Below, piece after piece: positions 33,615 to 47,698 of a DNA stretch of 64,000 bases. The notes under the pieces were generated by a model. That model searched no databases, was not told the DNA's origin, and worked only from the letters and a program-made list of their open reading frames with translations. Source of the DNA: Geothrix sp. (GTDB taxonomy: Bacteria; Acidobacteriota; Holophagae; Holophagales; Holophagaceae). Every line of letters starts with the position of its first letter. The stretch's first letter is position 1. The DNA lies in assembly GCF_020622065.1 (NCBI RefSeq), contig NZ_JAHRYQ010000001.1, positions 1,922,001 to 1,986,000 on the forward strand, written 5' to 3'. Position numbers and translations under genes: made by a program.

Positions 33615-33689
33615 GCGGGCGTAGTTCAGTGGTAGAACGCAAGCTTCCCAAGCTTGATGTCGTGGGTTCAATCCCCATCGCCCGCTCCA
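33615..33689 (+). tRNA. tRNA-Gly (anticodon CCC), integration target
   Basis: Acceptor GCGGGCG pairs with CGCCCGC, the D-arm is GTTCAGTGGTAGAAC, the anticodon stem is CAAGC/GCTTG with loop TTCCCAA (anticodon CCC), and the T-arm is GTGGGTTCAATCCCCAT; CCA is encoded (33687-33689). The last 47 bases belong to the 48-bp attachment repeat, so its 3' half came in with the integrated element and the tRNA stays functional. Confidence 0.96.
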
Positions 33690-33690
33690 A
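33643..33690 (+). repeat. attL, 48-bp direct repeat
   Basis: Starts GCTTCCCAAGCTTGATGTCG and ends CGCTCCAA; identical to 47651-47698. It covers the anticodon stem-loop, T-arm, acceptor and CCA of tRNA-Gly plus one base. Confidence 0.95.
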
Positions 33691-33693
33691 TAG

Positions 33694-33719
33694 AATCAGC
33701 CACTTACTAGTGGCTGATT
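33694..33719. terminator. hairpin after tRNA-Gly, supplied by the element
   Basis: AATCAGCCACT pairs with AGTGGCTGATT (11 bp, loop TACT), followed by TTGCGTC. It replaces the host hairpin that the insertion moved to 47697-47732. Confidence 0.6.
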
Positions 33720-33737
33720 TGCGTCAAGGGGTGACTG

Positions 33738-33756
33738 TTCTACTCATCGTCTACTC
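33738..33756 (+). repeat. putative integrase arm sites, left end
   Basis: Two direct TCTACTC copies (within TTCTACTC 33738-33745 and GTCTACTC 33749-33756, followed by CGAAG). The same pair with similar spacing and a CCCCGAAG tail occurs at 47518-47535 near attR, with a third copy at 47561. Confidence 0.5.
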
Positions 33757-33830
33757 CGAAGGGGTGTTTGCCCCCCGGCGGGTGGCCCTACTTTCCTCTT
33801 CTTTCTTCCTTCACTTTTGAAATGTAGGAG

Positions 33831-33936
33831 AACCGTCCAGACCGTCCGCAATGTCCAGAATGTAGCGTTGGTGCGGTTCTAGGCCTGGACGCTTGTGTTT
33901 TGAGAGTGTCCAGAACCGTCCAGAAGAGTGTCCAGC
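33831..33936 (+). repeat. CCGTCC/GTCCAG motif cluster, left end
   Basis: AACCGTCCAG (33831), ACCGTCCG (33841), TGTCCAGAA (33852), TGTCCAGAA (33907), AACCGTCCAGAA (33914) and TGTCCAG (33929). Related AACCGTCC copies occur at 47377-47405 and, on the other strand, at 47431-47460 inside the 5' part of the integrase gene. Confidence 0.5.
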
Positions 33937-34033
33937 GCTCATTCCTTAGATGGCGCAGATTCAGTATTGGCGCGGTTCTTCGATGCGCCTATACTTTCAA
34001 AAGGCGGACAAACCCCATGTTCCGCCCCTCTCG

Positions 34034-34058
34034 AACCCCGCTCCCCGGCGGGGTTTTT
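34034..34058 (+). terminator. rho-independent terminator in the left end
   Basis: AACCCCGC pairs with GCGGGGTT over a 6-base loop, followed by TTTCG. It would stop plus-strand transcripts entering from the tRNA side; no protein gene precedes it within the element. Confidence 0.7.
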
Positions 34059-34129
34059 CGTTTGGGCGTAGCGGGGATGCCATGGTCTAGGCAATCGGCG
34101 GTAGGATTCCCCCATCACACGGGATTCAG

Positions 34130-34510
34130 ATGGGAATGTTTGGGGCCCTCTTCAAAGCGTTGACTAAGCCCAATCGGAGGCCCGCAGTCAAAAATAATTC
34201 TGCGCGACTCCTCCTATCCGAGCGCGATATTGAGATCGTGAGGATGACAGCCCAGCGCATGGTGGATGTTGTAAACGAATCACTCCGAATCGCTGCTACA
34301 TCAAAGAACAAGGCCACTCGACTCTCCCGTATTGGGGTCGCACGAAAAACACTGGCTCGGCTTCGTGCACAGCAGGCGAAATTCCCGGTGATTCAAATTT
34401 TCTCAAGCCTCCAGGTTGAAACGGACCTAATGCGCTTGGAGTCAGAGGCACTGGCGATGCCCGACCCTCCGCCAAAGAAGACAAGAGCCAAGAGAAAGCC
34501 TCTCGGATAA
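34130..34510 (+). CDS. unknown 126-residue basic protein of the element
   Basis: The only sizeable plus-strand gene at the left end. It is rich in Lys/Arg with a helical middle (RDIEIVRMTAQRMVDVVNESLRIA) and ends in KKTRAKRKPLG. No family recognised. Codon use is much less GC-biased than the host genes. Its position next to attL and opposite orientation to the rest suggest an accessory (cargo) gene. Confidence 0.55.
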   Translation: MGMFGALFKALTKPNRRPAVKNNSARLLLSERDIEIVRMTAQRMVDVVNESLRIAATSKNKATRLSRIGVARKTLARLRAQQAKFPVIQIFSSLQVETDLMRLESEALAMPDPPPKKTRAKRKPLG

Positions 34511-34618
34511 TCCCAAAACTATTGGCATCGCGGGCCCATGTCCCCCGTGGAAAACCCCCGCTTCGGGGTGAGCCCTGAGCCCTTCAATGGGTGCTGCGTT
34601 CTGTGGGCAGCTAGGTGG

Positions 34619-35245
34619 CTAACGATGTGTTTGCCAGGAAGTCACCCGGTCCCCGTTGAAATAAATGTATTCGCCCAACCCATAGATCCACTGTTGGGTG
34701 AACCCCTGGGCGCTAACAGTCGTGACCACAGAATTGGGATGTCCCCAGGAGAGTAGGACCTGCTCTTTCGTGAGCCCCAGCTTGATCTTCCGATCCAACA
34801 GCAGCTTTTGAATGCCCCTTGGCTGTTTTTTGATGAGGGTTTGCCGTTCGGCTTCTGCCCTCTTTGCCTCGAGGGCGGCCTTCCTTGACTCAATCGCTTC
34901 GGGCTTAATCTTGGTGCCGACAATACGAATCTTTGCTGCGCCAGTCCACTTCGCTACATCAGCCTCTTCGCCCCTGACCCACCAGCTCCCTTTCTCCAAC
35001 GGAAGGTCAATCTCCACCTTGGGAAGATCTACCCAAGAATCTGCCCCAGTAGCGATGGAAGCTACTACGGTGATTGATTTGTATTCGTGAAGGGTGGGGC
35101 CGAATATAACCGAATAAAACTCACACGCTTTGGTGCTTAGTTTGTCCGTTTTTGAAATTTCAATCCGGATTCCATCCTTTTCATCAAACGCCATGGGCTG
35201 TTGAGTTTGTGTGATGAGTAGCGCTATCGCAATTAAGTTCCTCAT
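34619..35245 (-). CDS. exported protein with C-terminal BamE/SmpA-like segment
   Basis: 208 residues. A short signal-peptide-like start (MRNLIAIALLITQTQQPMA), a beta-rich middle, a Lys/Glu/Ala-rich helix (about residues 120-145), then LGLTKEQVLLSWGHPNSVV and IYGLGEYIYFNGDRV, the pattern of BamE/SmpA-type small domains. No lipobox Cys. Base composition is lower in GC than the host. Likely accessory gene of the element; role unknown. Confidence 0.6.
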   Translation of the reverse strand: MRNLIAIALLITQTQQPMAFDEKDGIRIEISKTDKLSTKACEFYSVIFGPTLHEYKSITVVASIATGADSWVDLPKVEIDLPLEKGSWWVRGEEADVAKWTGAAKIRIVGTKIKPEAIESRKAALEAKRAEAERQTLIKKQPRGIQKLLLDRKIKLGLTKEQVLLSWGHPNSVVTTVSAQGFTQQWIYGLGEYIYFNGDRVTSWQTHR

Positions 35246-35337
35246 GCCACCCCCTCATGCGCCCGGAGACGAGTGCTTTTGATTTGTATCTTCAGTCTAC
35301 GCTCACCGATTGGTCATGAATTGACCAATTCGAACCT

Positions 35338-35631
35338 CTAGGCGGATGTGACGGCCTTCCGGATGTAGATCATTACCGCTCCGCGATCCTTGAACCTTGG
35401 CTCCACGGTGACAGGCTCCCCGTCCTTCCGCTGATAGGTAGCGCCGAATCGCCCTCGGATCCGGCTCACCTTGACCCGGTAGGACACGCCACCACCCTCC
35501 AGGTCCACCACGGGGTAGTCCTCATCCACAAGGGCATCCCGAACCTTCCAGACGGCTACTAGCAACGCTATTGCCCAGGCGATGGTCAACGCCGAAGCGA
35601 TGAAGGCCACAAAAATGAGATTGTCCGACAT
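35338..35631 (-). CDS. small membrane protein of unknown function
   Basis: A 97-residue protein with one N-terminal transmembrane helix (about residues 5-28) and a soluble C-terminal part (GGGVSYRVKVSRIRGRFGATYQ). GGAGGT precedes ATG 35631. It lies just downstream of the terminase genes on the same strand. Not recognised; position could suit a lysis or membrane function, but nothing shows it. Confidence 0.55.
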   Translation of the reverse strand: MSDNLIFVAFIASALTIAWAIALLVAVWKVRDALVDEDYPVVDLEGGGVSYRVKVSRIRGRFGATYQRKDGEPVTVEPRFKDRGAVMIYIRKAVTSA

Positions 35632-35659
35632 GTCTACCTCCAGATTGCATTCATCATGC

Positions 35660-36946
35660 CTAGAAATTCAGGGGGTGGAATGCGGCCACCCGGCGAATCA
35701 GGGGCAATTGATCCCAGGTTGCGTAGCCCAGCGCGTCCACCAAATGGTCAAGCCCAAGGCCCTTGTCAGGAACATTCGTTCCCTCTTTGTAGGTCAGGCC
35801 TTCAAGGCATCGAATCAGTGAACGACAGCGGGGGTGGATGAACAACTTTGAGTCCCCCGCGGCGTTCTTGAATGCTGCATTCACACAGTTCACCCGATCC
35901 ACCACCATGGGGGCCTTGTCAGGTGCGATCACCTGAAATCCCGCGGCCCTAAGTAGGCTGAAGTCGGTCTGACCTACCGGAGCACTCGTCTTCCGCGCGT
36001 TCCCGCTTGGGTCGGGGTAGGCATGGATTCGTCGCTTGGGGTAGCGCCTCAGCAGTTCGTCGGCCATTAGCTGAGTGTTGCCGTTGTTGATCTCCAGTTC
36101 GTCCAGGATGTGGAATTGATCCCCTGCCCTCACGCCGATCACGGCAGACATTGGGGCGATGTTGAAGTCGCAGCCCACTAGAAGCGTCCCGTTTGTGTCC
36201 GCCAGGTCCGCCCTCACATTGACCTTGCGGTCGAAGTTCTGATAGACGAGCCCACCAAGGCACTCAAACGAGGCTAGGAACTCTTGCTTGAAGGTCCGCT
36301 CATCCATCTCCGCCCGAGCCGCTTCCAGCTCTTCTAGGGGCACCCTGCCCCCGTCCGCGGTGGTGAACTGCCAGGCCTCCCAATTGTCCCGGGCCTGCGC
36401 TGCGTTCCAGAGGTCGTAGAGGCAGTTGAAACCCTTGGGTGTGCCCATGAACAAGGCGGAACCTTGGCGGTCCGCTAGAGCGGGTCTGATGACCTCGTTC
36501 CAAGCCTCCATGCCCGTGTCCTGAAACTCGTCTAGGACCACGGCATCCAACCCCACGCCGCGGAGGGAGTCTGGATTGTCGGCACCCCGCAAAGCAATGA
36601 CACAGCCGTTCTGCAACTCAATGGACAGGTCGGTTTCATCGGTGCGGAGTTCCCACCCCACAGGCAAAAGGTTCTTCAAGAGCCGCCACGCGATCTGTTT
36701 TGACTGGCGATAGGTGGGCGAAACATACCAGAGCACAAGGCCCTTGGATGCTGGATCGCAGGCCATCTTGAGGAGGTAGGTCAGAGCGACATGAGTCTTC
36801 CCAAACCGCCTCCCCGCCACCACCACCCTGAATCGAGCCGAAGACTGGAAGATTTTCGCTTGAGCCGGGGTTAGTGTGATTCCCGCTTGTAATCCGTTCT
36901 GACCCTTTTGCGGATTCTTACTAGTCTTGTTGGATCTCAGTCGCAT
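35660..36946 (-). CDS. phage terminase large subunit (TerL)
   Basis: Motor and nuclease that packages DNA into a capsid. 428 residues. N-terminal ATPase: VVVAGRRFGKTHVALT (Walker A about residues 44-51), VSPTYRQSKQIAW, and Walker B AVVLDEFQD (D139-E140). C-terminal RNase H-like nuclease: VGCDFNIAPMSAVIG (D260), AYPDPSGNA (D312) and LDHLVDALGYATW (D404), so the acidic residues are all present and the protein looks intact. Upstream is the small subunit, 18 bases away. Confidence 0.9.
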   Translation of the reverse strand: MRLRSNKTSKNPQKGQNGLQAGITLTPAQAKIFQSSARFRVVVAGRRFGKTHVALTYLLKMACDPASKGLVLWYVSPTYRQSKQIAWRLLKNLLPVGWELRTDETDLSIELQNGCVIALRGADNPDSLRGVGLDAVVLDEFQDTGMEAWNEVIRPALADRQGSALFMGTPKGFNCLYDLWNAAQARDNWEAWQFTTADGGRVPLEELEAARAEMDERTFKQEFLASFECLGGLVYQNFDRKVNVRADLADTNGTLLVGCDFNIAPMSAVIGVRAGDQFHILDELEINNGNTQLMADELLRRYPKRRIHAYPDPSGNARKTSAPVGQTDFSLLRAAGFQVIAPDKAPMVVDRVNCVNAAFKNAAGDSKLFIHPRCRSLIRCLEGLTYKEGTNVPDKGLGLDHLVDALGYATWDQLPLIRRVAAFHPLNF

Positions 36947-36964
36947 TATGAAACCGCCGTGTCT

Positions 36965-37447
36965 CTAAACCTTGACATTCAACTGTTTAGGAAAATTTTT
37001 CGAGGTGACAGAATTGCCGTTATCGAAAGCTGAGGGGGTAATATCCCTGGGTTCCGTCTCAATTGGAACGGAGATTATCAACGGCGCGGGCAATACAAAC
37101 TCATTTTCGACCTCTACCCGATCACGCCATCCCGCACGGTTTTTCAGGTAGAAGATCGCCGCGGAGGTGTTGCCTTTGATGGCCTGCTGATACAGCGCAT
37201 TCGTGATGACAGCGATGCCGCGAGCCTGCCCCGCCTTTATCGCATCGTCCAATTCGGCTGATTCTTTCCGGCGCCGTGTGAGGGTGGCGACATTGATCCC
37301 AATCGCATCACAGATCTGCTGATGTGATAACCCTTTTGCGGCTAAGGCTTGAACGACCTTTGCGTTGATCACCATTTTCGCAGGCCCCGGCTTCCCTGGA
37401 GGTCGAACCTCGCGGGTCACAGGCGGCTGGGATTTGGGTTTGGTCAT
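36965..37447 (-). CDS. phage terminase small subunit-like protein (TerS)
   Basis: A 160-residue protein with an N-terminal helix-turn-helix (about residues 37-60: KGLSHQQICDAIGINVATLTRRRK) and a helical central part ending AIFYLKNRAGWRD, a common ending in TerS proteins. TerS recognises the packaging (pac/cos) site. It lies immediately upstream of TerL, which strengthens the call. In phage satellites TerS redirects packaging to satellite DNA. Confidence 0.8.
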   Translation of the reverse strand: MTKPKSQPPVTREVRPPGKPGPAKMVINAKVVQALAAKGLSHQQICDAIGINVATLTRRRKESAELDDAIKAGQARGIAVITNALYQQAIKGNTSAAIFYLKNRAGWRDRVEVENEFVLPAPLIISVPIETEPRDITPSAFDNGNSVTSKNFPKQLNVKV

Positions 37448-37702
37448 CCCTTAGTTCCTCGCCAATCGCTCCCTGTAGCGGGATTCCCGGGTGGCCCATT
37501 TATCGGAAGAGTCGGTTTCAGAGTGCGTGTGTCGTTACTTTGAAGCGTTGCTAGGTCCATCGTGTTTGCCCTTGTGCAAGGATTGAGTCTCTTCTCATCT
37601 GGACCTTTTCCGTTCGTCGCCCTTTTTGCACCGTTCGGGAGGTATTGCCGGTGTTCCTCAGTGATTCGGCGTAGGGTGCCCCTGGACTTCCAGGAGGCGA
37701 GA

Positions 37703-37930
37703 ATGAATTTGGAACAGAAGCTTCAGGTAATGCAGGCTGCGTCAGTGGTGTTTGCCTCGCGGATTGCGGCGCGTGCGGCCATGGCGGCCACTGGAAAGGC
37801 TTTGGGAATTCAGCCACCCTCAGACGATGAGATCCTGAAACAAAGCGTTGAATTGGTGCTTCGCGGACTCGGGAATAGAGACCTGTGGCCGAAGTCGGAC
37901 AGCCCTGCGTTTCATTCGATGAACTTCTGA
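37703..37930 (+). CDS. small unknown protein, opposite strand within the element
   Basis: A 75-residue protein (MNLEQKLQVMQAASVVFASR start) with AGGAGG five bases before ATG 37703. It is helical with an Ala-rich segment (IAARAAMAATGKALGI). A longer open frame upstream has no RBS. Not recognised. It separates the tail-type gene from the terminase genes. Confidence 0.5.
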   Translation: MNLEQKLQVMQAASVVFASRIAARAAMAATGKALGIQPPSDDEILKQSVELVLRGLGNRDLWPKSDSPAFHSMNF

Positions 37931-38055
37931 TTTCCCGGTTCGTCATAGACATTCGGTAAGGACGAATAGCTTCCATGTCACCAGAGGCCAGTTTCCGGGC
38001 TTCTAGCAGGGCATGGTGGGCATGGGTTCTAGGCATGGTCATCGCGGCATCAATC

Positions 38056-38796
38056 CTATTCAGCCTTCGCCCACATCCACGGGATCGAATCCCCGTTGCC
38101 ATGCTGGGCTCCGTCATCGGCGGTGCCGCAAACCTCCATGTCGAATCCGCCAACCTGCCAGGTGTGGCGGGCAATGCCTCCCGGTTCACCGCCTGCGGCG
38201 TCAATGCCTAAGCTGATTACATGCCCACCAATCCGCATGGTCCCGTAGAGCACTGGCACGGCACCACCCTGGCCTGTGGTCAAGGTTGGGCCAGAGAATG
38301 AGAAGGTTTCCTCGTTTTTCGATCCGTCCAGCCCTGCGTTGGCAACATGGGGCGTGGTAGCAAGCAATCCCGCCACACCACCCAGCACCATTGCTATTCC
38401 CATGTTGGACAGGGCGGATAGCCCCCAGGCACCTGCGGAGCCAATAGCGGCCCAGCCCATGGGGTTCCAAATGGCAAGGCCGATCATGGCCGCGCCAAGT
38501 AGGATCTTTCCGAAGTCGTCACTACCGGCACCCGCAACGACTGGAACGATCTTGATCACATCAGTCCTGCCGACAGGGGCGAGGCAACCTTTCTCATCTA
38601 GCGCTTCCTCGCTTCGCAGGACACGGAATGGATGGTCAAGGCGCGCCCGAAGGTAGGCGTCAAATCCGGGCCTAGTGATGCACAGGGCACGGATGGCCTC
38701 GGCAGGTGAGTTCACGGCGAGGTCGTGCCGCTTGCCGAATTTCTTACGCATATCCCCGTAGAGAATGACCGGGATTGTTCGTTGGGCCTCACTCAT
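38056..38796 (-). CDS. lambda gpI-like tail tip assembly protein
   Basis: The 246-residue protein has the tail assembly I pattern: TIPVILYGDMRKKFGKRHDLAVNSPAEAIRAL followed by RPGFDAYL, a Gly/Ala-rich hydrophobic middle (about residues 95-150), and a C-terminal ATTPHV...TGQGGAVPVLYGTMRIGGHVISLGI. In lambda, gpI works with gpJ, gpK and gpL at the tail tip. None of those is found here, nor any other tail gene. ATG 38796 has GGAG seven bases upstream and overlaps the previous gene's end. Confidence 0.78.
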   Translation of the reverse strand: MSEAQRTIPVILYGDMRKKFGKRHDLAVNSPAEAIRALCITRPGFDAYLRARLDHPFRVLRSEEALDEKGCLAPVGRTDVIKIVPVVAGAGSDDFGKILLGAAMIGLAIWNPMGWAAIGSAGAWGLSALSNMGIAMVLGGVAGLLATTPHVANAGLDGSKNEETFSFSGPTLTTGQGGAVPVLYGTMRIGGHVISLGIDAAGGEPGGIARHTWQVGGFDMEVCGTADDGAQHGNGDSIPWMWAKAE

Positions 38797-39088
38797 AAAC
38801 AAACTCCGCGTATCCGGGTTTCTTGTCCGCAGCGGCTTCAAGTTCCCGCCAGTTCACAGGGCGCTGGTATCCCGGCTCCGCTTCGATGGGCCATTGGATG
38901 GGCTGATCATCGGGCCTCCAGTGGCGCACGATGACAAACTCCACATCCCCAGGGTGGCGCGTGTATTCAGGGCTCACGCGCTCTCCCTCGAACACGACTA
39001 GGCACCGCCCACCCGCAGGAAGGTTCCGGATAGCCTTCTGGAGCTTTTGATCCTGGGAGAGTGGGCGTTTCTGGAATGGGAACTTCAT
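38789..39088 (-). CDS. unknown protein upstream of the tail gene
   Basis: A 99-residue protein (MKFPFQKRPLSQDQKLQKAI start). Contains CLVVFEGERVSPEYTRHPGDVEFVIVRHW. Its start lies in an ATGA overlap with the 31-residue membrane protein, and its end overlaps the gpI-like start by eight bases, so it is coupled on both sides. A TTG 30 bases upstream is a weaker start. Not recognised. Confidence 0.6.
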   Translation of the reverse strand: MKFPFQKRPLSQDQKLQKAIRNLPAGGRCLVVFEGERVSPEYTRHPGDVEFVIVRHWRPDDQPIQWPIEAEPGYQRPVNWRELEAAADKKPGYAEFVYE

Positions 39089-39180
39089 CGGATCACCAGC
39101 AGGCAGGCCAGCATCCAAACGGCTAGTGCAGCGGTGCCGAGGATCAGTCGCCAGGGGTTATCGGTTCGGACATGGCGCAT
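39085..39180 (-). CDS. 31-residue single-pass membrane microprotein
   Basis: Sequence begins MRHVRTDNPWRLILG and continues with a hydrophobic helix to ...LVIR. Start ATG overlaps the previous stop as TAATG, and its stop overlaps the next start as ATGA. These exact joins and the single membrane helix argue that it is a real gene though very short. Function unknown; small phage membrane proteins can act in lysis or exclusion. Confidence 0.55.
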   Translation of the reverse strand: MRHVRTDNPWRLILGTAALAVWMLACLLVIR

Positions 39181-40055
39181 TAGCGGGCCTGGGTGGGGTC
39201 GTTAAGCTGGGCAAGGTAGGCAGGGCCTTCCTCGATGCCAACGAATCGGGCCGATCCAGTCAGGGTGTCGAAGATGCCGTAGCTTCCGGGCTGGGCTTCG
39301 ATCCGCTGGAACCGGGCGCTAGGTTCGGTCCGTTCAGCTTCCGCAGCGGCAAGGGCAGCGGCAGGCGTTCTCAGCAATCGCTCGCGACGATCAAACTTGG
39401 CTCGCTCATAGTCACCAGCGGCCCGGATCAGCAACATTTCGTTGGTGTAGTTTCGAGCCTCGCCTTTCGCATCACTGAAGGCCAAATCCGCCTCCAGATA
39501 AGCCACCTTGGCGCGATAGAAGGATTCCATCGTGGATTCCTGGCCCGTAAGATCCAGCGCATCAAACCGGATGCCTCGGATCTTGTCAGTCCACGCGGGA
39601 AGCGGCGAACCGTTGGCATCGAGGCGGCCCAGCGAGAGGGCGTAAAGGCGCTCCCAATCCTTCCCGACTGCGGCATCTTCCAGAGCAGCCTGGAGGGCGG
39701 AGGGGTCAGCCTCCAGGGCCTCAGCCTCTTCGCGGAGCAGGCTCAGCACGGCGGCTCGCTCCTGGGTCGCACCATCGGGCATCGCAGCGAGGCGGAGCAC
39801 CTGACCAAGATTCGACCAGGCTTCCTCTTCCAGCTTCAGGTCGGACTGAAGGATTTCAACCTGGGCGTGAAGGGCCTGGATCGCCGGGAATCCGCCCACC
39901 TTGGCGAGTTCGTCGGTAATCCAATCCATGGTCCGGCCTTCTGCATTCTTGATTGCGGCGATCTTGTCTACACGGGCCTGCACTTCACTGACGAGGCGGC
40001 TAGAAGTGCTTACGAGGCGGGTGGAAAGATCCTGAATTTGTCCTGCGGTGCGCAT
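39180..40055 (-). CDS. coiled-coil protein of unknown function
   Basis: 291 residues, Ala/Glu/Arg-rich and mostly helical, with heptad-like stretches (LSTRLVSTSSRLVSEVQARVDKIAAI; ALHAQVEILQSDLKLEEEAW). AGGAGGT eight bases before ATG 40055 is a strong start; the frame is open a little further. No family recognised. It sits between replication and tail-type genes, where phages keep structural or scaffold proteins, but nothing identifies it as one. Confidence 0.6.
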   Translation of the reverse strand: MRTAGQIQDLSTRLVSTSSRLVSEVQARVDKIAAIKNAEGRTMDWITDELAKVGGFPAIQALHAQVEILQSDLKLEEEAWSNLGQVLRLAAMPDGATQERAAVLSLLREEAEALEADPSALQAALEDAAVGKDWERLYALSLGRLDANGSPLPAWTDKIRGIRFDALDLTGQESTMESFYRAKVAYLEADLAFSDAKGEARNYTNEMLLIRAAGDYERAKFDRRERLLRTPAAALAAAEAERTEPSARFQRIEAQPGSYGIFDTLTGSARFVGIEEGPAYLAQLNDPTQAR

Positions 40056-40127
40056 AGTGTGCGACCTCCTATTCATCAAGCCTCGGTCGCGCTTGTCGCC
40101 GTAGCGGTTCACTGCGCGACAGAATTT

Positions 40128-40415
40128 TTAAGCGGCCTGTTTAGATCGCAGTTTGTAAACCGTTCCCCGGTGGCACCCCACCCGGCGGGCGACCATGGCT
40201 GGGCGAACCCCTTGTTTCAGCAGCTCCAGAATCCGTGCCCGGTTGTTCGGGCGGATCTTCTGATCCATAGGCGGGACACGATGCCCGGCCAGCGTTTCAC
40301 GGGACACGGTAAAGGCCAGAATCGCAAGAATGGGTGCCCGATCCTCTTCACCGGGCATTGCCGCCACGAATTCGGCCCGCATGCGTTCCATCAGGTGATC
40401 GAGAATCGCACTCAT
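40128..40415 (-). CDS. small helix-turn-helix protein
   Basis: A 95-residue protein with a C-terminal HTH of the resolvase/Hin type (about residues 60-92: RARILELLKQGVRPAMVARR then VGCHRGTVYKL). The N-terminal part is helical and unrecognised. It could regulate late genes of the element. It starts within an ATGA overlap with the VRR-NUC gene. Confidence 0.65.
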   Translation of the reverse strand: MSAILDHLMERMRAEFVAAMPGEEDRAPILAILAFTVSRETLAGHRVPPMDQKIRPNNRARILELLKQGVRPAMVARRVGCHRGTVYKLRSKQAA

Positions 40416-40789
40416 GCGGCACCCCGCAGGCTGGGCATGGGCACCTTGAACCCGGCGTCAGTAAGGCCTTGATACACATCCTGCACACTGAAGGCCACGA
40501 TGCAGACATTCCCGCGCCTGCGCTGGTCCTCCAGCCAAGCCACCTGTTTGTCTGAGAGCTTCCCGCCCTGCGCCTTGCATTCGACATGGACGGCCCGTGG
40601 ATCGCCGTGGAGTTCGACTGTTATGTCTGCCTGCCCTGGGGTGCCAAATCGAACAGGGCGGCGATGCCCCGCCATGACCATGCCCACAGAGTTCCGGATG
40701 ACAGTCCCGAGGTTGCAGGCCATCAGATAGGCCATCACTTCCTTGAGCACCACTGATTCCGGGGTCTGCCTCTTGGAGGGCGGGGTCAT
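40412..40789 (-). CDS. VRR-NUC domain nuclease
   Basis: The 125-residue protein fits the stand-alone VRR-NUC family (PD-(D/E)xK fold): FGTPGQADITVEL (catalytic Asp), VHVECKAQGGKLSDKQVAWLED (the E-x-K and following Gln/Trp). These are often next to phage helicases and primases and may cut branched DNA. The ATGA overlap with the ATPase gene supports a shared role in replication. Confidence 0.82.
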   Translation of the reverse strand: MTPPSKRQTPESVVLKEVMAYLMACNLGTVIRNSVGMVMAGHRRPVRFGTPGQADITVELHGDPRAVHVECKAQGGKLSDKQVAWLEDQRRRGNVCIVAFSVQDVYQGLTDAGFKVPMPSLRGAA

Positions 40790-42363
40790 GACGCAAGCCC
40801 AAAGAATGTTTCCATGGCCCTAGCTTCGGCATCATGGCGGGCATACCCGCGGTCAAAGTGCAGGGTGTCGGCCTGGGGCTGGATCTCATCCAATGGCGCT
40901 ATGCCGATGTAGCGAGTCCTAGAAGGCGTGTTATCCCGAAGGCCAAGGTGAACGATCCACCGATCTTCCCTGAGCGCTGGGGCAAGCCGTCGAAGCTTGC
41001 CCACAAGCCCTGTCGGGGTGGCAGGCCAAGTCGAATCTGGAGCACCCGCTGGGCGTAGCTTGTTCATCGCCTTTAGAAGGTCTGAAGCGCTACCCTTCCA
41101 TCGCTTCGTGGGCTCAAGAACGAGGAGGAGCACCTGGGCCACGGGGTCAGATTCCAGAACATTGTGGACGGCCTCGGCACGGGCCTCGTCAAAGTAAGCC
41201 TTGAAGGTCCCTGGAGCCCACGGCATATCGGGCTCAGCAGCGAGGGCAAGGCGATAAAAGTCCGCCATGCGAGGGCGTTCCTCAATCTTCACCGAATCCC
41301 AGCGCCGCAGCGCCCCCACCAATACATCCAGGAGCGCTCCTAGAATCCCCGGGCGGGCCTTCTCGTAGGCTGCGAGGAACTCTGCCTCCTCACGGCGTTC
41401 CGAGGGATCAATGCGCAACAAGTGAACAGGGACGGCACGGTCTTGTAGGTCCGCGCGGTTCACAACATCCACAATGGAATTGAGAATCACGGGGCGCCGG
41501 GCGGAAAAGATAGCCTCTTCGCGGTTGGCGTAGAGTTGGCGCGTGGCGAAACTGGCACCCGTTGAGAGTCGGCACAACCCGTCCGCCAGGTCCGCGGAGA
41601 TTTTGGAAAGGTTATCGAAACTCATGATCCAGGTGTTATCCGCGGCCACCGCCAAGTCCCGGTCCGTCTTCGGGGCAGAGCGCAGAGAACCGCTACGCGG
41701 ATCCACAAGGCCCTGGGTTGCCCGGGTCATGCTCGATTTAGCTGATCCGTGCTCCCCCCCCACCACTAATACGGGCTGGGGTCCCCTGTCTGTCATGGCG
41801 CTCACAATCCAGGTAACGGTCATGACATGCCCGGGTTCGTCGGTGTGGATGAACTCCCTAAGGTCCGACAGGGATCCACCACGAACAGGAACGGGAAGTG
41901 CTCCGGTCCCGGAAGGGCGGCGAAACCGGACAGGTGCTTGTTCACCAGGGATCACCCTCCAACCCTTCCCGGTGATCTCCAGCACTCGCCATTCATCGTC
42001 TGCGAGGTCCAGATAGATCCGGTCCCCTAAGTCCGCCACTCGAATATGGACAGGGATCCTGGGGCCATCGTGGATCGCGTGTGCCTCCAGGCTGTCCAGA
42101 GCCCCGTCTAGGTCCTGCTTCGATAGAGCCTCACCCGCCATTCGGTATACGAGGCCACTAAGCCACATCCGGCCCGCAGTGGTCCGCAGCTCCACATGTT
42201 CTGTATGCCCATTCCGCTTGTAGCTAACGAACCCCTGGGGGGGGCCATCGCCCTGGGTATGCCAGAACTCTCCGGAAGTGCGGGCCAGGGTTACCGCCTT
42301 CTGACGCGCGGATTCTTTGGCCCGGGCTTCCCCCTGCGGAACTTCGATTTTCTTTTTCCTCAC
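40786..42363 (-). CDS. SF3-helicase/VapE-like replication ATPase
   Basis: 525 residues. The middle holds a P-loop VVGGEHGSAKSSM (about residues 202-211), a Walker B-like WIMSFDNLSKIS (D250), and a sensor/Arg segment FSARRPVILNSIVDVV; the C-terminal ~150 residues resemble DNA-binding regions of phage/plasmid primase-helicases. I chose GTG 42363 because it overlaps the primase stop as GTGA with GGGGGAAG upstream; an ATG at 42429 would overlap the primase by 70 bases. Probably the replicative helicase of the element. Confidence 0.75.
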   Translation of the reverse strand: MRKKKIEVPQGEARAKESARQKAVTLARTSGEFWHTQGDGPPQGFVSYKRNGHTEHVELRTTAGRMWLSGLVYRMAGEALSKQDLDGALDSLEAHAIHDGPRIPVHIRVADLGDRIYLDLADDEWRVLEITGKGWRVIPGEQAPVRFRRPSGTGALPVPVRGGSLSDLREFIHTDEPGHVMTVTWIVSAMTDRGPQPVLVVGGEHGSAKSSMTRATQGLVDPRSGSLRSAPKTDRDLAVAADNTWIMSFDNLSKISADLADGLCRLSTGASFATRQLYANREEAIFSARRPVILNSIVDVVNRADLQDRAVPVHLLRIDPSERREEAEFLAAYEKARPGILGALLDVLVGALRRWDSVKIEERPRMADFYRLALAAEPDMPWAPGTFKAYFDEARAEAVHNVLESDPVAQVLLLVLEPTKRWKGSASDLLKAMNKLRPAGAPDSTWPATPTGLVGKLRRLAPALREDRWIVHLGLRDNTPSRTRYIGIAPLDEIQPQADTLHFDRGYARHDAEARAMETFFGLAS

Positions 42364-43400
42364 GGCTTCCCCCAAGCCCATTCGATCAAATCCCGAAGCC
42401 CCATATGCTGATGCCCACTGTGTTTGCACTTGAAGGTGGGCCAGGTGCCCGGCGTGTGGATTAACACGGCGCTGTCATCGTCCACACCTCCTGAGTGCTC
42501 GCTGGCCCATGGGCACCGCGCGCGGCGCTTGGTCCCGTCTTTGAATGGTCGGGGCGGGCCGACCTTCACCCCGCGGGCCTCCAGAATCGGAACGAGATCT
42601 AGGTGCATGAAATCCACCGGGCGCCCGTCCACGCGGTAGGCCTGGAACCAGCGCTCCCCGCGGCTCCATTCGGCCACCCGAGATTCCATTACCTCCGCCT
42701 GCCACGGGGCCAGGGCGGGCGCCCAGGATGCGGGCAGCTCGTCGGGAGAAATGTATAGGTGGGTTCCGGAAGTTCGGGACCTACGGATCGCCTCCGGTGT
42801 GGGACTTCCAGGCAAGAAGGCCAGGGCAGCGGGGTTATGCAACACCGGGAGGTCAAGCCCCCGGCGGAACACAGCCAAGCCACAGGCCCCCAATGCGAAA
42901 TCCGCGGCCCGTTCCCAAAGATCGATGGGCACGGGCTCAGTCAGAGGCACTACAACGCGGAACTTCTCATGCTCGGGTGTACATGACCAGGTGGTCCAGG
43001 TAACGGAGGCCACCCCGGCGCGTTCAAGGGCGGCCGTGACTTCCTCCATGGTGACGGGATCGTCTATGCAGACCTTCCGGACCTTGGGGCGCCCTGTGGG
43101 CTGGCCCGAATTAGAGTCGGCGTAGAACTCTCCGGTGGGCTCTTCTCGTGAGTTATCGAAATCCAGGATCAGCAGGGAAACCCCAAGCGCATTGTCTCTG
43201 CCCCGCGGCTTTCCTTGTGGGTAGAAGGCCCCGGAAATGGCCGGCATGGACCGCTTGGGGTCCCCGCCAGGGTTTCCGGGTTGAGGTGCGAAAGTCCGCT
43301 CCAGCGCAGCCTGGAGAGTGGGCCAGGAACCGACCCAAGGCGAGCCGATGGGGTCCCGGGCATGTTTGAAGAATGAAGCGCGAAGAGGCGCCGGGTTCAT
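42360..43400 (-). CDS. replication primase-like protein (AEP-type core with C-terminal zinc-ribbon-like region)
   Basis: 346 residues. The primase-type signs are SLLILDFDN (D80, D82, the metal-binding D-x-D) and TPEHEKFRVVVPL (H144, R148). The C-terminal ~60 residues have paired Cys/His (CPWASEHSGG... FKCKHSGHQH) like a CHC2/zinc-ribbon, common in plasmid and phage primases. Its start overlaps the coiled-coil gene by ATGA. Together with the ATPase it would replicate excised element DNA. Confidence 0.72.
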   Translation of the reverse strand: MNPAPLRASFFKHARDPIGSPWVGSWPTLQAALERTFAPQPGNPGGDPKRSMPAISGAFYPQGKPRGRDNALGVSLLILDFDNSREEPTGEFYADSNSGQPTGRPKVRKVCIDDPVTMEEVTAALERAGVASVTWTTWSCTPEHEKFRVVVPLTEPVPIDLWERAADFALGACGLAVFRRGLDLPVLHNPAALAFLPGSPTPEAIRRSRTSGTHLYISPDELPASWAPALAPWQAEVMESRVAEWSRGERWFQAYRVDGRPVDFMHLDLVPILEARGVKVGPPRPFKDGTKRRARCPWASEHSGGVDDDSAVLIHTPGTWPTFKCKHSGHQHMGLRDLIEWAWGKP

Positions 43401-43708
43401 CGGGACACCTCGCCTTTCTTCTCAAGCCGTTTGACCTTGTTCATCCAGTGCTTCGCCGTTTTCATCAGCTCGGCGGCCTCAGTCATCTTCCCGTTCAATC
43501 TGACCTGGAGGACCCGGTTGAGTTCCGCGAACCGCTTGACCTCGGCGTGAGCCTGGGCCAGCCGATCATCAGCCTCAATGATTCGGAGCATGGACTGGTA
43601 TTCGTCGTTGCTGGCCCGCGCCTCACTTTTCAGTTCGCGGCATTCGTCTTCCCGGTCTGAGAGAAGGGCCTGGAGCCTGCAAACCTCCTGCTCTAGCGTG
43701 GTGGTCAT
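43397..43708 (-). CDS. small coiled-coil protein
   Basis: A 103-residue protein, almost wholly helical (LEQEVCRLQALLSDREDECR; AELMKTAKHWMNKVKRLEKK). Coupled by ATGA to neighbours on both sides. No family recognised. Confidence 0.6.
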   Translation of the reverse strand: MTTTLEQEVCRLQALLSDREDECRELKSEARASNDEYQSMLRIIEADDRLAQAHAEVKRFAELNRVLQVRLNGKMTEAAELMKTAKHWMNKVKRLEKKGEVSR

Positions 43709-43866
43709 TGGCCCACCTCAACGGCGTCTAGCAATTCCAGGAGGAGGCGGGCTGCGGAGTCCGGATCCCCCCCAGGCTCGGCAAGCTGACCCATGGATCT
43801 GAGGCCATACGCTTGCTCCAGACCGTGGGGCAGAATCATGGCGAAACTAGCGGCTGAGGGCGTCAC
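43705..43866 (-). CDS. 53-residue protein of unknown function
   Basis: A short gene (GTG start, reading VTPSAASFAMILPHGLEQAY) whose start overlaps the preceding stop (GTGA) and whose stop overlaps the next start (ATGA). It fills exactly the space between two coupled genes, which supports it despite its length. Contains an acidic, Leu-rich tail. Confidence 0.5.
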   Translation of the reverse strand: MTPSAASFAMILPHGLEQAYGLRSMGQLAEPGGDPDSAARLLLELLDAVEVGQ

Positions 43867-44198
43867 TGGAGCGCCTTTCCCGCGATTTCGGGGGCGGTTT
43901 CATAGGCGATGACCACGGCCCGGAGGATGAGGTCTGCGGAAGGGGACAGCCCCTCATCCGCTAGGTGCGCCGTGATCGTATTGACCACCCGTTCAAGGCG
44001 CTCGCGGTGGGCTAAAAACCTCTGCTCATAGGAGATCCCCTGGTGGTCCTCTCCCGTCGCGTCATTAGCGAAAGGCATGATGCTAAGGGCCTTCACGAGA
44101 TCGAGGGCCAGTGCGCGGGGCATCATCACCAGATCCTCATCGGGCATTTCACCCCAGGATCTCCAGGCGTATCGAGGGGCAGTGTGTGGGCGAGTCAT
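43863..44198 (-). CDS. unknown protein of the element
   Basis: A 111-residue protein starting MTRPHTAPRYAWRSWGEMP with DLVKALSIMPFAN and a helical C-terminus. ATGA overlap with the upstream gene, GTGA with the downstream one. Not recognised. Confidence 0.55.
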   Translation of the reverse strand: MTRPHTAPRYAWRSWGEMPDEDLVMMPRALALDLVKALSIMPFANDATGEDHQGISYEQRFLAHRERLERVVNTITAHLADEGLSPSADLILRAVVIAYETAPEIAGKALQ

Positions 44199-44431
44199 TC
44201 CATCACCTTCCCCAGGAAGGACACGCGCTTAGGAGTCACGCTGAATGCGCCAAGGAACCCGTTCGCATTGCGAAGTTCGACGCGCAGTTGACCGGATTCG
44301 TGCCGGTAGGCACGGGAAAGGCTCGCTGAGGGCTGGCAGGCGGGATCCCCGTTGCCGTCCCAGGAACGGCACCAGGCGGTGATACAGCGGGCCAGATCCT
44401 TGGGGTCGGGATCGAAGTAGATGCGGCTCAT
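44195..44431 (-). CDS. unknown small protein of the element
   Basis: A 78-residue protein starting MSRIYFDPDPKDLARCITAW, with two Cys and a C-terminal beta-type segment (LRVELRNANGFLGAFSVTPK). Coupled at both ends by ATGA. Not recognised. Confidence 0.55.
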   Translation of the reverse strand: MSRIYFDPDPKDLARCITAWCRSWDGNGDPACQPSASLSRAYRHESGQLRVELRNANGFLGAFSVTPKRVSFLGKVME

Positions 44432-44838
44432 ACATCCACCTCGAGGTCGAAATTAAAACCGTGGATCATCTGGAGGGTGTCCATGCCTGCCCGGAGTTCG
44501 GCGGAAGCGTGGAGGAGTAGCTCGCAGAGGCCAGGATTCCCTTCGGCCAACCTTGCAGCGATGGCGAAAAGGCGGTTGGCACGGTCGAGGTAGTTCAATG
44601 CCCCATTGGTGTTGTTGTGAACATCTTCGGGCGTCCAGCCGAGGCTGATAGCGCTCGGGAAATAGCAGGCCCAACGCTGATCGTTAGCGGCAGCTTCCTG
44701 GGTTCCCGTTTGACTTCGGCCCTGCTTCACTACCTCCACCATTTGGTCGGCAAGGTGGCGGGCTGATTCAGGAATGGGCAAACTGCCGAATTTGTAGGCC
44801 GAGGGCTTACCGGCGGGGGCGGCTTTCTTAATTCCCAT
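44428..44838 (-). CDS. unknown protein of the element
   Basis: A 136-residue protein with PAGKPSAYKFGSLPIPESAR at its start, then helices (ADQMVEVVKQGRSQ; LLLHASAELRAGMDTL). Not recognised. It follows the AlpA-like gene by 12 bases and starts the run of overlapping small genes. Confidence 0.55.
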   Translation of the reverse strand: MGIKKAAPAGKPSAYKFGSLPIPESARHLADQMVEVVKQGRSQTGTQEAAANDQRWACYFPSAISLGWTPEDVHNNTNGALNYLDRANRLFAIAARLAEGNPGLCELLLHASAELRAGMDTLQMIHGFNFDLEVDV

Positions 44839-44850
44839 GTCTGTCCCCTC

Positions 44851-45075
44851 TCAGTTCGCGTTCTTGCGGGCTTCCGCCCATGCTTGGAGATCCGCCAGGC
44901 AGTAAGACCGGCGGCGAGCGCTCAACATGACGCAGGGGGGGCCAATCTTGAGCTTGTGGAGGCGCTGGAGGGCTCCCTTGCTCTTCAGGCCCAGGAAGAT
45001 GACCGCTTCATCGTCGGTCAGGTGACGCTGGGCCTTGGGCAGCTCCAGCGCGGGGGTGGTGGATTCGTCGGCCAT
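44851..45075 (-). CDS. AlpA/excisionase-like small DNA-binding protein
   Basis: The 74-residue protein has the layout of AlpA/Xis-type winged HTH proteins: LTDDEAVIFLGLKSKGALQRLHK and a C-terminal RRSYCLADLQAWAEARK. AGGAGG six bases before ATG 45075. The position (first gene of the leftward replication operon, near int) fits a regulator that turns on excision and downstream genes, as AlpA does in satellites and P4-like elements. The 163-base gap before it probably holds its promoter. Confidence 0.65.
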   Translation of the reverse strand: MADESTTPALELPKAQRHLTDDEAVIFLGLKSKGALQRLHKLKIGPPCVMLSARRRSYCLADLQAWAEARKNAN

Positions 45076-45238
45076 GATTGGCCTCCTTTTTGAGGTGGAG
45101 GCCCTATAATTCGGGTGCCTCCTGTTAGGGGATGGTGTGGACGGGTTCGATACTTGGCGGTGTTGGCCCGTCCGCTTTGTTGCTGGTAGAAGTGATTCAA
45201 ACCTCATGAAGTGAGTTTCAGCCCTTGGCGTGATTCAG

Positions 45239-46120
45239 TCACGGCGGCGAAGTCGCACTTTGTTTAAGGACTTCAGCTTGACGCTTTTTGATGATGTAAG
45301 ACTCGCCCCAATCAACTCCAAAATATGGTGAGGTCCCAAATAGCGGATAGGGTTGAGGATCTCCATTTTTGATAATTCGAATAGCATCTCTAACGGCATC
45401 AGTCGTTGGAATTTTTTTATCTGTAGGAAGTGCAAACCTAGTAATGGTCGATACAAATTGGAAAATTGGCCCTTCGGTTGTTCTCGAGTCCATCGCCTTT
45501 CGTCCATCCGGGTGGCTATTCCATAGATTTACAAGGTCAACTGCCAAGCGGAGAGACAAAGGCCCATGCATAAACACATAGGGATTCCCCTGGCCCGTCT
45601 CGGTTTCAGCCTCCATGTACTCGGCAACCTTTACAACCCAACTGAGTTGCTGAACAAAGGAATCAAGTCCCTTTTTTGAGCTCGGGAATGGAGGCATTAT
45701 CGCTCCCATGGCGAGGGTCGTTTTCTCCCAATCCTGAAGACGGCCCAATGCCCCTATAAGGTCTGTGGCGGAAGACCTCACCTGACCACATCTGTCCGCG
45801 TGAAGCCGCCAGCCCCCCCTTCTTCTCTTTTTGCTCCACGGGCCAACTTGATTTTCTACGGTGATGGCCTCATTGAATCTTTGAGCGATTGTCCAAAGGC
45901 GCCCTCTCATGCCTTGCTTAGTCCACATAAGAGGATTGACCCAGTTTCCCAAACGAGAGGGGGGTCCGGACTTGAGGTCATGGAGAGGGCCAAGCATTTC
46001 TAAGGCTCTACTGAGGTGATCCAAATCCCCAAAAGGCCCAAATTTGGGATGTTGGAGAAGAGGCTTCCCCATAAGAGACGCTATTAAGTTCTCGTGACTA
46101 TCAATTTCCGCTGAACTCAT
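45239..46120 (-). CDS. unknown 293-residue protein coupled to the integrase, probable cargo
   Basis: Starts MSSAEIDSHENLIASLMGKP in an ATGA overlap with the int stop. Helical, with RRRGGWRLHADRCGQVRSSA and a C-terminal VRDAIRIIKNGDPQPYPLF and YFGVDWGESYIIKKRQAEV. Base composition is the lowest in GC of any gene in the element, suggesting a separate origin. No family recognised. Such AT-rich genes beside satellite integrases often encode anti-phage or accessory functions, but that is inference. Confidence 0.6.
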   Translation of the reverse strand: MSSAEIDSHENLIASLMGKPLLQHPKFGPFGDLDHLSRALEMLGPLHDLKSGPPSRLGNWVNPLMWTKQGMRGRLWTIAQRFNEAITVENQVGPWSKKRRRGGWRLHADRCGQVRSSATDLIGALGRLQDWEKTTLAMGAIMPPFPSSKKGLDSFVQQLSWVVKVAEYMEAETETGQGNPYVFMHGPLSLRLAVDLVNLWNSHPDGRKAMDSRTTEGPIFQFVSTITRFALPTDKKIPTTDAVRDAIRIIKNGDPQPYPLFGTSPYFGVDWGESYIIKKRQAEVLKQSATSPP

Positions 46121-47496
46121 CGCTTCCCCCGCAGCTTCCCCTTTAGGTCCCCGGCAACCGTGTTTGAAGCTTCTAGGCGCTTATCAGTCCGGGGCTTGGA
46201 GTAGCGGTCCGTTGTGCTCGTTTGACTGTGGCCTAGAAGCGCTGCAATGGCGGATTGGCTCATATTCAGCCCCGCGGCGGTGTCCCCGTGAGCATGGCGG
46301 AGATCATGGCGATACGGGCGGCGTTCAATCCCGTTGCGATCCGTGACGGTCGTGATGCCAGCCTCTTTCAAGAGCCGGTTCCAGAACTTGGTGATGTCCT
46401 GAATGGGCGCCGGTTTCCTCGGCTGGCCCTTGGGTGCCTTCCGGCCTTCACCTGGCAGCAAGTAGGGGTTCCCCTCGATCCGGTCAAGGGACTTGATCAC
46501 CTCCCAGGCTGCGTCATTTAGCGGGGCGGAGGCGGCCCCCGTCTTTGTGTCCTTCCAGCGAATCGTCCGCGTCTTCAAGTCGATTTGAGTCCACTCCAGA
46601 TCCAGAACTTCCCTCTTCCTCCTTCCCAGGAAAAAGAGCAGGCGCACCGCGGCGATGGGATACGGGCTCTCTTTCCCGCTGGCCTCCATCCTCTCGAGCG
46701 CTCCCCCGAGCTTTTCCAAATAGTCGTCACTCAGCTCCACCTCCCGGCGGTCCTCCGGGTAGGGCTTCCATTTCGCGCGGCGGAGGTCATCGAGGGGATT
46801 GGTGCCCCGGTCCCGGAGGCCCCACAACTCACATCGGTCGAAGATCATGCCTGAAAGCCGTATGCAGACATTCGCCTGGCGGGGGTTCTCCTCCATGCTC
46901 CGATGGAACTTCCAGAGATCCTGATACCCAATGCCGCGGGGAAACCTATCCCGGAAGGCCTCTCGAATGTGTTTCAGCGCGGACCGATAGGTGCTTGCCG
47001 TTGTGGACTTCACCGTTTGGAGGTGTTCCGTCTCGAAATCATCCACCACATCCTGCCAAAGCTTGTCCGCGCGATGTTCCGGAGCTAGGACTTCCTTTCC
47101 GTAGTCGGCCAGCTTGAGGTGGTATTCCTTCACGGCTTCCAGGAATGTCTTCGCCTTGAGCGTGATCCATTTCGAGCGGCGGCCGGGAAGGTTGACCTTC
47201 AAAACGAAAGCCACCAACCCCGTGACTCCGATCCGCACCCCAAGGCCGCTGTTCTTCAGGTCCCAAACATAGTATTTACGCGGCTCTGGCCTCAATCCTG
47301 CGATCACCTCATCAGACAGTTTGGCCTTACGGGCTGCGCCTTGGGTTCGCGTGGGGCCATGGACACTCGCGGGCAGACCGTCCACAACCGTCCAGGAACC
47401 GTCCGCGTCGAAAGGTGCGTCATTGCTAGATTCCGGACGCTCCGGACGGTTTGGACGGTTCGGATCCAATGATCTACCTGTGTGCGGTTTCCCCAC
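46117..47496 (-). CDS. int: tyrosine recombinase/integrase of the element
   Basis: 459 residues. N-terminal ~65 residues are Pro/Arg/Asn-rich (NRPNRPERPE repeats), then an arm-binding domain (VWDLKNSGLGVRIG, typical of DUF4102-like integrases), a core-binding domain (about 145-245), and a catalytic domain with R293 (GRRKREVL), K318, H397-x-x-R400 (HDLRHAHG), H423 (LLGHSQTS) and Y432 (DRYSK). All catalytic residues are present. It would recombine the tRNA-Gly site. The gene lies 155 bases from attR, at the end away from the tRNA. Confidence 0.93.
   Translation of the reverse strand: MGKPHTGRSLDPNRPNRPERPESSNDAPFDADGSWTVVDGLPASVHGPTRTQGAARKAKLSDEVIAGLRPEPRKYYVWDLKNSGLGVRIGVTGLVAFVLKVNLPGRRSKWITLKAKTFLEAVKEYHLKLADYGKEVLAPEHRADKLWQDVVDDFETEHLQTVKSTTASTYRSALKHIREAFRDRFPRGIGYQDLWKFHRSMEENPRQANVCIRLSGMIFDRCELWGLRDRGTNPLDDLRRAKWKPYPEDRREVELSDDYLEKLGGALERMEASGKESPYPIAAVRLLFFLGRRKREVLDLEWTQIDLKTRTIRWKDTKTGAASAPLNDAAWEVIKSLDRIEGNPYLLPGEGRKAPKGQPRKPAPIQDITKFWNRLLKEAGITTVTDRNGIERRPYRHDLRHAHGDTAAGLNMSQSAIAALLGHSQTSTTDRYSKPRTDKRLEASNTVAGDLKGKLRGKR
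47377..47460. repeat. CCGTCC motif cluster near attR, within the integrase 5' region
   Basis: ACCGTCCA (47377), AACCGTCCAG (47386), AACCGTCCG (47397) on the plus strand, then CCGGACG, CCGGACGGT and TGGACGGTT (47433-47460), the same motif on the minus strand. Those last copies encode the NRPNRPERPE run of the integrase. Confidence 0.5.
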
Positions 47497-47517
47497 TGTG
47501 CCCCCCGGCCCCTCTCG

Positions 47518-47568
47518 TTCTACTCCAGTCTACTCCCCGAAGCACCCAAGGCAACCCCTAGTCTACTC
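47518..47568 (+). repeat. putative integrase arm sites, right end
   Basis: TTCTACTC (47518), GTCTACTC (47528, followed by CCCGAAG) and GTCTACTC (47561), direct copies of the motif pair at 33738-33756. Confidence 0.5.
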
Positions 47569-47650
47569 AAAATGCTTATACTAACAGTTAAATCCTTTAT
47601 TTACAGCGTATTTTTCGATCTAACCTTCTGCTTACCCGATGCGACTCTTT

Positions 47651-47698
47651 GCTTCCCAAGCTTGATGTCGTGGGTTCAATCCCCATCGCCCGCTCCAA
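47651..47698 (+). repeat. attR, 48-bp direct repeat (tRNA-Gly 3' half remnant)
   Basis: Identical to 33643-33690. The bases before it do not complete a tRNA (CTCTTT instead of GAACGCAA), so this is an attachment-site remnant, not a gene. Confidence 0.95.

Follow-up and report, generated by a model that had tools for sequence, protein, structure and literature searches.

Why would an integrative element carry a complete DNA-packaging terminase and the gene for a tail-tip plug, and no gene for a capsid? The question is raised by a 14.0-kb island in Geothrix sp. (Holophagaceae, Acidobacteriota; NCBI RefSeq assembly GCF_020622065.1, contig NZ_JAHRYQ010000001.1). The island lies within a stretch of 64,000 nucleotides (positions 1,922,001 to 1,986,000 of the forward strand), the whole of which we call the window. 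A preliminary description of this stretch had proposed that the island is a phage satellite. Our follow-up analysis leaves us highly confident that it is one, and we consider it reasonably probable that this window element is an intact helper-dependent satellite that uses its own motor on borrowed heads, probably joined to chimeric siphophage tails.

An island with a terminase and one tail gene

The island is bounded by direct repeats that are identical at 48 of 48 positions and correspond to the 3′ part of a tRNA-Gly(ccc) gene, as the preliminary description had stated, and these ends point to site-specific integration (Table 1). GC content is ~0.52–0.63 inside the island versus ~0.64–0.74 outside. 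Its 19 genes occupy ~86% of its length; the main ones all lie on the minus strand, with int first, and mostly abut or overlap. Strong profile matches bear out the earlier naming of the integrase, the terminase subunits TerS and TerL and a tail protein resembling gpI of phage lambda; a VRR-NUC/Holliday-resolvase-like nuclease is likewise backed by profiles. TerL matched Terminase_6N/6C above cut-off and, when aligned with phage and satellite TerLs, retains intact motifs (Walker A AGRRFGKT, Walker B VVLDEFQD, nuclease DFN, DPSG and GLDHLVDALGY). The tail protein matched PF06805 above cut-off and is homologous to most of lambda gpI (8iyk_I, E 6e-31, residues 17–215, obtained with the two-member profile A5), which makes it a member of the lambda tail assembly protein I family; homologues are present in four other integrative elements. 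TerL, gpI and the satellite-specific protein o310 are under evolutionary constraint, with ratios of nonsynonymous to synonymous change (pN/pS) of 0.36 for TerL (window versus locus L192), 0.43 for o310 and 0.56–0.60 for gpI; the ratio for the small protein o97 is 0.25. Because synonymous sites show high to saturated change, these values overestimate the true ratios.

Family and profile scans of the element's proteins gave no match to portal, capsid, connector, tape-measure, major tail or lysin/lysis models, in agreement with the earlier account. All open reading frames (ORFs) of at least 150 amino acids (aa) were listed, and the unassigned ones mostly overlap assigned genes or show a poor codon-position GC pattern. 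By these scans and this list, the element corresponds to the general definition of a phage satellite: it is integrative, with its own integrase and attachment (att) sites, and the genes for a complete virion are absent. Scans of this kind detect head genes when these are present, since they were picked up in a full prophage of the same family (genome G087, loci L058 and L204), whose genes run in the usual order: TerS, TerL, portal (phrog_145 4e-90), head morphogenesis, major head, neck, tape measure, L, K and I. It is plausible that G087-like phages were the source of the satellites' tail genes.

Portal or capsid genes concealed among the ORFs of no known function would have undermined the proposal, and none were found in these scans. 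The largest conserved unknown, o310, is modeled as all-helical (mean pLDDT, the predicted local distance difference test score, 80.8). We rejected o310 as a hidden capsid or portal protein, given that it is helical in its models, that nothing significant emerged from fold searches and that the VIA-align rows were generic helical bundles (Z up to 11). The o310 gene lies upstream of gpI or of a tape measure in these elements, and its product is probably a satellite assembly or redirecting factor. Neither o310 nor o97 had any match in 50,697 phage records, and o310 offers a marker for finding more such satellites. Antisense to o310 and to the neighboring helix-turn-helix (HTH) gene runs an open frame of 448 aa (window:39126–40472, plus strand), which is probably a by-product of codon bias. 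PADLOC, applied to ten proteins, gave no hits that would indicate defence cargo.

A set of int, AlpA-like, primase and VapE-like genes had also been described, and here the integrase is firm. The primase has a weak and short match (phrog_9765, 8e-4, residues 129–162), and no Pfam, PHROG or NCBIfam model matched the VapE-like or AlpA-like protein; these names are based on gene position, on a P-loop motif (GGEHGSAKSS) and on a small sequence that resembles DNA-binding proteins. Of the gene trio of classical phage-inducible chromosomal islands (PICIs), the element thus has a firm int, an AlpA-like gene without a profile match and a weakly matching primase. The AlpA-like, primase-like and ATPase genes are all conserved in relatives.

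A closed-circle sibling and other relatives

IMG/VR searches with the ATPase and primase found one contig, IMGVR_UViG_3300009175_000006, of 14,217 bp. The first and last 123 bp of this contig are identical, and such repeats at the ends of an assembled contig usually indicate a circle; closed in this way, it measures 14,094 bp, 86 bp longer than the att-to-att distance in the window. The sequence therefore reads as a closed circle joined at attP, an assembly artefact being formally possible. Identities to the window are 49% for the integrase, 63% for the alpA-like gene, 56% for a 53-aa gene, 68% for the primase and 58% for the ATPase. From attP, which contains a tRNA 3′ fragment, the circle reads int, an unknown gene, alpA-like, small genes, primase, ATPase, small genes, TerS (phrog_1206 2e-21), TerL (phrog_979 1e-43), a tail-chaperone-like gene named by position and size only, a 762-aa tape measure (phrog_2854 7e-27), a small gene and attP again. 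Two of its small proteins match phrog_20787, "virion structural protein" (1e-9 and 2e-4), and a PHROG scan gave no portal or major capsid match. Both the circle and locus L165, described below, have a gene in the position of o293 without detectable similarity to it.

Relatives in other Holophagaceae genomes were annotated by ORF reading and selected profile scans, not exhaustively, and at this depth none has a portal or major capsid gene. L165 (G305, same genus) is an 11.0-kb element with 47-bp repeats in tRNA-Gly, as in the window. It shares int (49% identity), primase (66%), ATPase (51%), o310 (59–61%), o109 (54%) and gpI (43–46%), along with alpA-like, 53-aa and HTH genes; no TerS or TerL match was found in it. 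As L165 keeps gpI without a terminase, gpI appears to be a kept satellite gene and the terminase an optional part. The picture of an element built on terminase and tail gene alike is therefore in need of revision: the tail gene is the more conserved of the two. Between these two species, the tRNA-Gly gene and satellite cassette are inverted relative to the flanking genes, livF and a 369-aa gene (L165:1745–14012 versus window:32849–48872).

More distant relatives occupy other tRNA genes. L192 (G343, another genus; 15.1 kb, tRNA-Ser, 66-bp repeats) has a distant integrase, a DnaB-like ATPase and homologues of TerS (43%), TerL (64%), HTH (36%), o310 (33%) and gpI (33%). Its segment between gpI and the tRNA-Ser att site (L192:12225–15753) encodes a protein of 587 aa that matches no PHROG, a DprA-like protein (by eye) and a 218-aa protein, which may be cargo. 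L193 (G339, a third genus; 12.4 kb, tRNA-Arg, 22-bp repeat) combines a replication-initiation gene with a small gene that takes the position of TerS (its PHROG match is annotated "Rnase E"), a TerL of another type, an o310-like protein, o109 (34%) and gpI (41%). L183 (G124; 12.2 kb, tRNA-Thr, 45-bp repeats) has o310 (47%), o97 (79%), a 563-aa protein resembling tape measures (5e-9 with the best tape-measure profile) and a neck1/tail-completion protein (phrog_169 2e-45). The complex L180 region (G312, tRNA-Thr) includes gpI (~42%), a minor tail protein and a protein of phrog_673, a family with the label head scaffolding protein; an IS3-like insertion sequence (IS) interrupts the minor tail gene of this same-genus genome (L180:15391–17702). 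L064, on a contig of a Holophaga metagenome-assembled genome, has primase and ATPase, a 97-aa protein judged TerS-like by eye (phrog_11043, unnamed) and no TerL match, and in L168 (G260) a primase-ATPase fusion is followed downstream by TerS and TerL, where the contig ends.

A core of int, alpA-like, primase-like and ATPase genes is shared, with different integrases and replication genes in L192 and L193, and the recurrent late cassette is HTH, o310 and gpI, with TerS-TerL in some members. The preliminary description had suggested a search for the same gene set in other genomes; related elements exist, and members vary, with gpI and no terminase or with other tail genes. Its second condition for refutation, a full-length prophage at a related locus in which these genes survive as remnants, was not observed among the related loci found. 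The relatives are themselves small, att-bounded or circular, and no portal or major capsid gene was detected in them.

Four of the five satellite gpIs cluster in a tree with support of 91/88, which is not firm, and the L192 gpI is unplaced; the tree thus gives no firm case for a single satellite origin of gpI. Close gpI relatives were absent from IMG/VR, and a TerL search there gave 29 loci that share with the window TerL alone or TerL and TerS. Relatives of the ATPase comprise two records of one phage among phage records versus 225 genome stretches in GTDB contigs. These relatives (loci L066–L143 among them) are scattered over many bacterial phyla, a hint that many satellites have yet to be examined.

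Several other features of these loci deserve mention. The o97 proteins of two elements that differ in integrase and tRNA site (window:35338–35631 and L183:6614–6904) share 79% identity, far more than other genes of the same elements, which suggests recent exchange; o97 also occurs at L182:6503–6766. In a tRNA-Ser remnant (L182:5748–7700), integrase, gpI and o97 fragments are joined, apparently a deleted relative of these satellites. Genes judged by eye to be SOS-response-associated-peptidase-like recur in or beside tRNA-linked elements (L183:5835–6518, L184:7542–8186, L164:17884–18552 and L192:1–712). The genome of the window element contains a second island outside the window (L194:7237–13666; G000:C1 ~1,888,736–1,895,165), which is 6.4 kb long, lies at tRNA-Ala between 46-bp repeats and has an integrase and a weak o310-like protein, with no terminase or tail match.

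Table 1. Features of the window element, in window coordinates (L numbers are loci in other genomes; circle, the IMG/VR contig)
Feature	Position	Strand	Evidence
tRNA-Gly(ccc), integration target	33615..33689	+	ARAGORN
att repeat copy 1, within 3′ part of tRNA-Gly	33643..33690	.	exact 48-bp direct repeat
o208	34619..35245	-	N-terminal signal-like hydrophobic stretch; sole match phrog_11546 (unknown function) 1.6e-7, C-terminal part
o97, small satellite-specific protein	35338..35631	-	79% identity in L183, 56% in L182; pN/pS 0.25
TerL, terminase large subunit	35660..36946	-	phrog_2 9e-46; motifs intact; 64% identity to L192 TerL
TerS, terminase small subunit	36965..37447	-	phrog_309 4e-27; 43% identity in L192
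gpI homologue, tail-tip assembly/plug protein	38056..38841	-	phrog_32 2e-50, 195/203 positions; lambda gpI 8iyk_I E 6e-31
o109, directly upstream of gpI	38789..39118	-	54% identity in L165, 34% in L193, beside gpI there too
o310, satellite-specific helical protein (predicted)	39180..40112 (start likely 40055)	-	homologues in L165, L183, L192, L193
Small HTH protein	40128..40415	-	HTH_23 3e-7; similar gene beside o310 in L165, L184, L192
VRR-NUC / Holliday-resolvase-like nuclease	40412..40789	-	phrog_93 1.5e-8, phrog_5702 7e-8
P-loop ATPase, VapE-like by position	40786..42429	-	60% identity in L064, 58% in circle
Primase-like protein	42360..43400	-	weak phrog_9765 8e-4; 68% identity in circle
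Five small overlapping genes (103, 53, 111, 78, 136 aa)	43397..44838	-	ORFs; 53-aa gene conserved in circle, L165, L166
AlpA/excisionase-like small protein, named by motif only	44851..45207	-	63% identity in circle, 48–65% in L165 and L166
o293, overlaps int end	45239..46120	-	ORF; no family match
Tyrosine integrase	46117..47496	-	PF00589 2e-15, phrog_1 2.5e-36; 49% identity in circle and L165
att repeat copy 2	47651..47698	.	exact 48-bp direct repeat

Alternative explanations

Could the island be a decayed prophage, in which the head and most tail genes were lost and int, replication genes, terminase and gpI were left by chance? Both terminase and gpI derive from the common gene stock of phages, and L180 bears an IS in a tail gene. 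However, the headless gene set recurs across independent elements, tRNAs, genera and backbones, one of them a complete circle; the genes are intact, mostly abutting and constrained, and the core ATPase is nearly absent from phages. We therefore regard decay, which the preliminary description had already thought unlikely, as highly improbable. Descent from a capsid-forming PICI (cf-PICI) that lost its head module and kept TerS-TerL has somewhat more to recommend it, as cf-PICIs join integration genes, TerS, TerL and a head module, and some have putative tape measures. Yet the four TerL-bearing capsidless elements differ in replication module, TerL type (at least two) and gene order, which suggests repeated acquisition of a terminase instead of one loss, and no capsid-bearing relative was found; such a loss is improbable.

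The main rival to a structural role for gpI is interference. In this case, gpI (or, in siblings, the tape measure) would act outside satellite particles as a weapon that poisons helper tail-tip assembly or protects the host cell. Satellites often disturb helper assembly, and PLE11, one of the phage-inducible chromosomal island-like elements (PLEs), blocks helper tail formation with Rta. Moreover, gpI is the sole tail-tip gene in the window element, its usual neighbors K and J being absent. On the other hand, gpI is full length and constrained, the other tail parts carried by siblings (tape measure, neck protein) have structural roles in phages, and PLEs place their own tape measure and hub in tails otherwise made of helper parts, both proteins having been found inside PLE virions (PMC12987554). 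Use as a weapon seems to us unlikely, although far less so than decay.

Proposed mechanism

If the island is a helper-dependent satellite with its own motor, how might it spread? Helper infection could lead the AlpA-like protein to drive excision, after which the element would replicate by its own primase and ATPase. Its TerS-TerL would then pick satellite DNA and dock on the helper portal to fill borrowed heads, providing packaging specificity without a need for the helper motor; we think that the terminase probably packages satellite DNA in this way. In lambda, three gpI molecules reside in the tail tip, where a plug domain keeps the tube closed beneath the tape measure until the receptor is bound (PMC11101478). 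By analogy with lambda gpI and with the PLEs, we propose that satellite gpI enters a helper-derived tail tip, replacing or competing with helper gpI next to gpJ and below the tape measure. The outcome would be chimeric tails with a satellite-made plug, a step on which our judgment is evenly poised. Siblings would do likewise with a tape measure, combined either with a chaperone-like gene or with a neck protein. It is possible, although we advance this tentatively, that a group of Acidobacteriota satellites edits siphophage tails, each member swapping one or a few tail parts and several adding a complete packaging motor without a head shell gene.

Several points weigh against this reading. No helper phage, particle, excision or packaging site (cos/pac) was seen for the window element. 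Support is weak for the names primase, ATPase and AlpA-like; the gpI tree gives no firm split of satellite from phage gpI, and element sizes range from 11 to 15 kb with no clear size class. Nor was a resident helper seen: gpI occurs in the window's genome in the window element only, and three standard portal/capsid families have no match in that complete genome, although the same families also miss the G087 portal. As neither gpI nor these families were found elsewhere in the genome, the likely helper is a phage that arrives from outside or one that resides as a prophage in other strains.

Comparison with known satellites

Like classical PICIs and P4-like satellites, the window element has a tRNA att site, an integrase, a size within 10–15 kb and no head genes, and its putative AlpA-like regulator and putative primase-like replication gene would be further points in common. 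Those satellites use TerS or other packaging redirection without TerL and, by definition, lack phage structural genes, whereas the window element has both TerL and gpI. We know of no tail genes in them. The element shares integrase, TerS and TerL with cf-PICIs, some of which have putative tape measures, but cf-PICIs encode a portal, protease, major capsid and connectors, none of which was found in the window element. The Streptomyces satellites MulchRoom and MiniFlayer also have their own TerS and TerL, and MiniFlayer a tail fibre gene; they have portal and capsid and lack a primase, the reverse of the window element (PMC10690885).

On one more point the preliminary description needs amending: tail genes in satellites have precedents, the closest being the PLEs and the Pseudomonas element AH14b. 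AH14b has, in this order, int, AlpA, primase, helicase, small genes and tail assembly protein I, the last at a place equivalent to that of gpI in the window element, with no head genes (PMC4936722; KU708005). Its gpI is 33.5% identical to that of the window element (E 1e-21), and its other proteins have no clear similarity; unlike the window element, it has neither a terminase nor an o310 homologue. AH14b DNA was found in helper-made particles, which are tailless (PMC4936722), so that AH14b backs the satellite reading and is silent on tails.

The Vibrio cholerae PLEs are likewise integrated satellites, and they encode a tape measure, chaperone and baseplate hub that give chimeric tails. Compared here by description, they differ in parasitising the contractile-tailed phage ICP1 and in having no reported TerL (PMC12987554), whereas gpI accompanies a full terminase in the window element, and tape measure or neck genes of the lambda type are present in its siblings. 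PLE tail manipulation was shown in a 2026 paper whose authors thought it broader (PMC12987554), and the Holophagaceae elements represent an independent case, in another phylum and with a lambda-type tail. The tail-tip plug gpI is a repeated satellite target, present also in the otherwise unrelated AH14b and paired here with a complete terminase and no capsid, which raises the questions of why a satellite should encode the plug for DNA release when the tail itself is borrowed, and whether the portal of a helper can accept a packaging motor of foreign origin. In the searchable literature, satellite tail genes themselves have precedents; a full terminase without a capsid, joined to single tail genes, is new.

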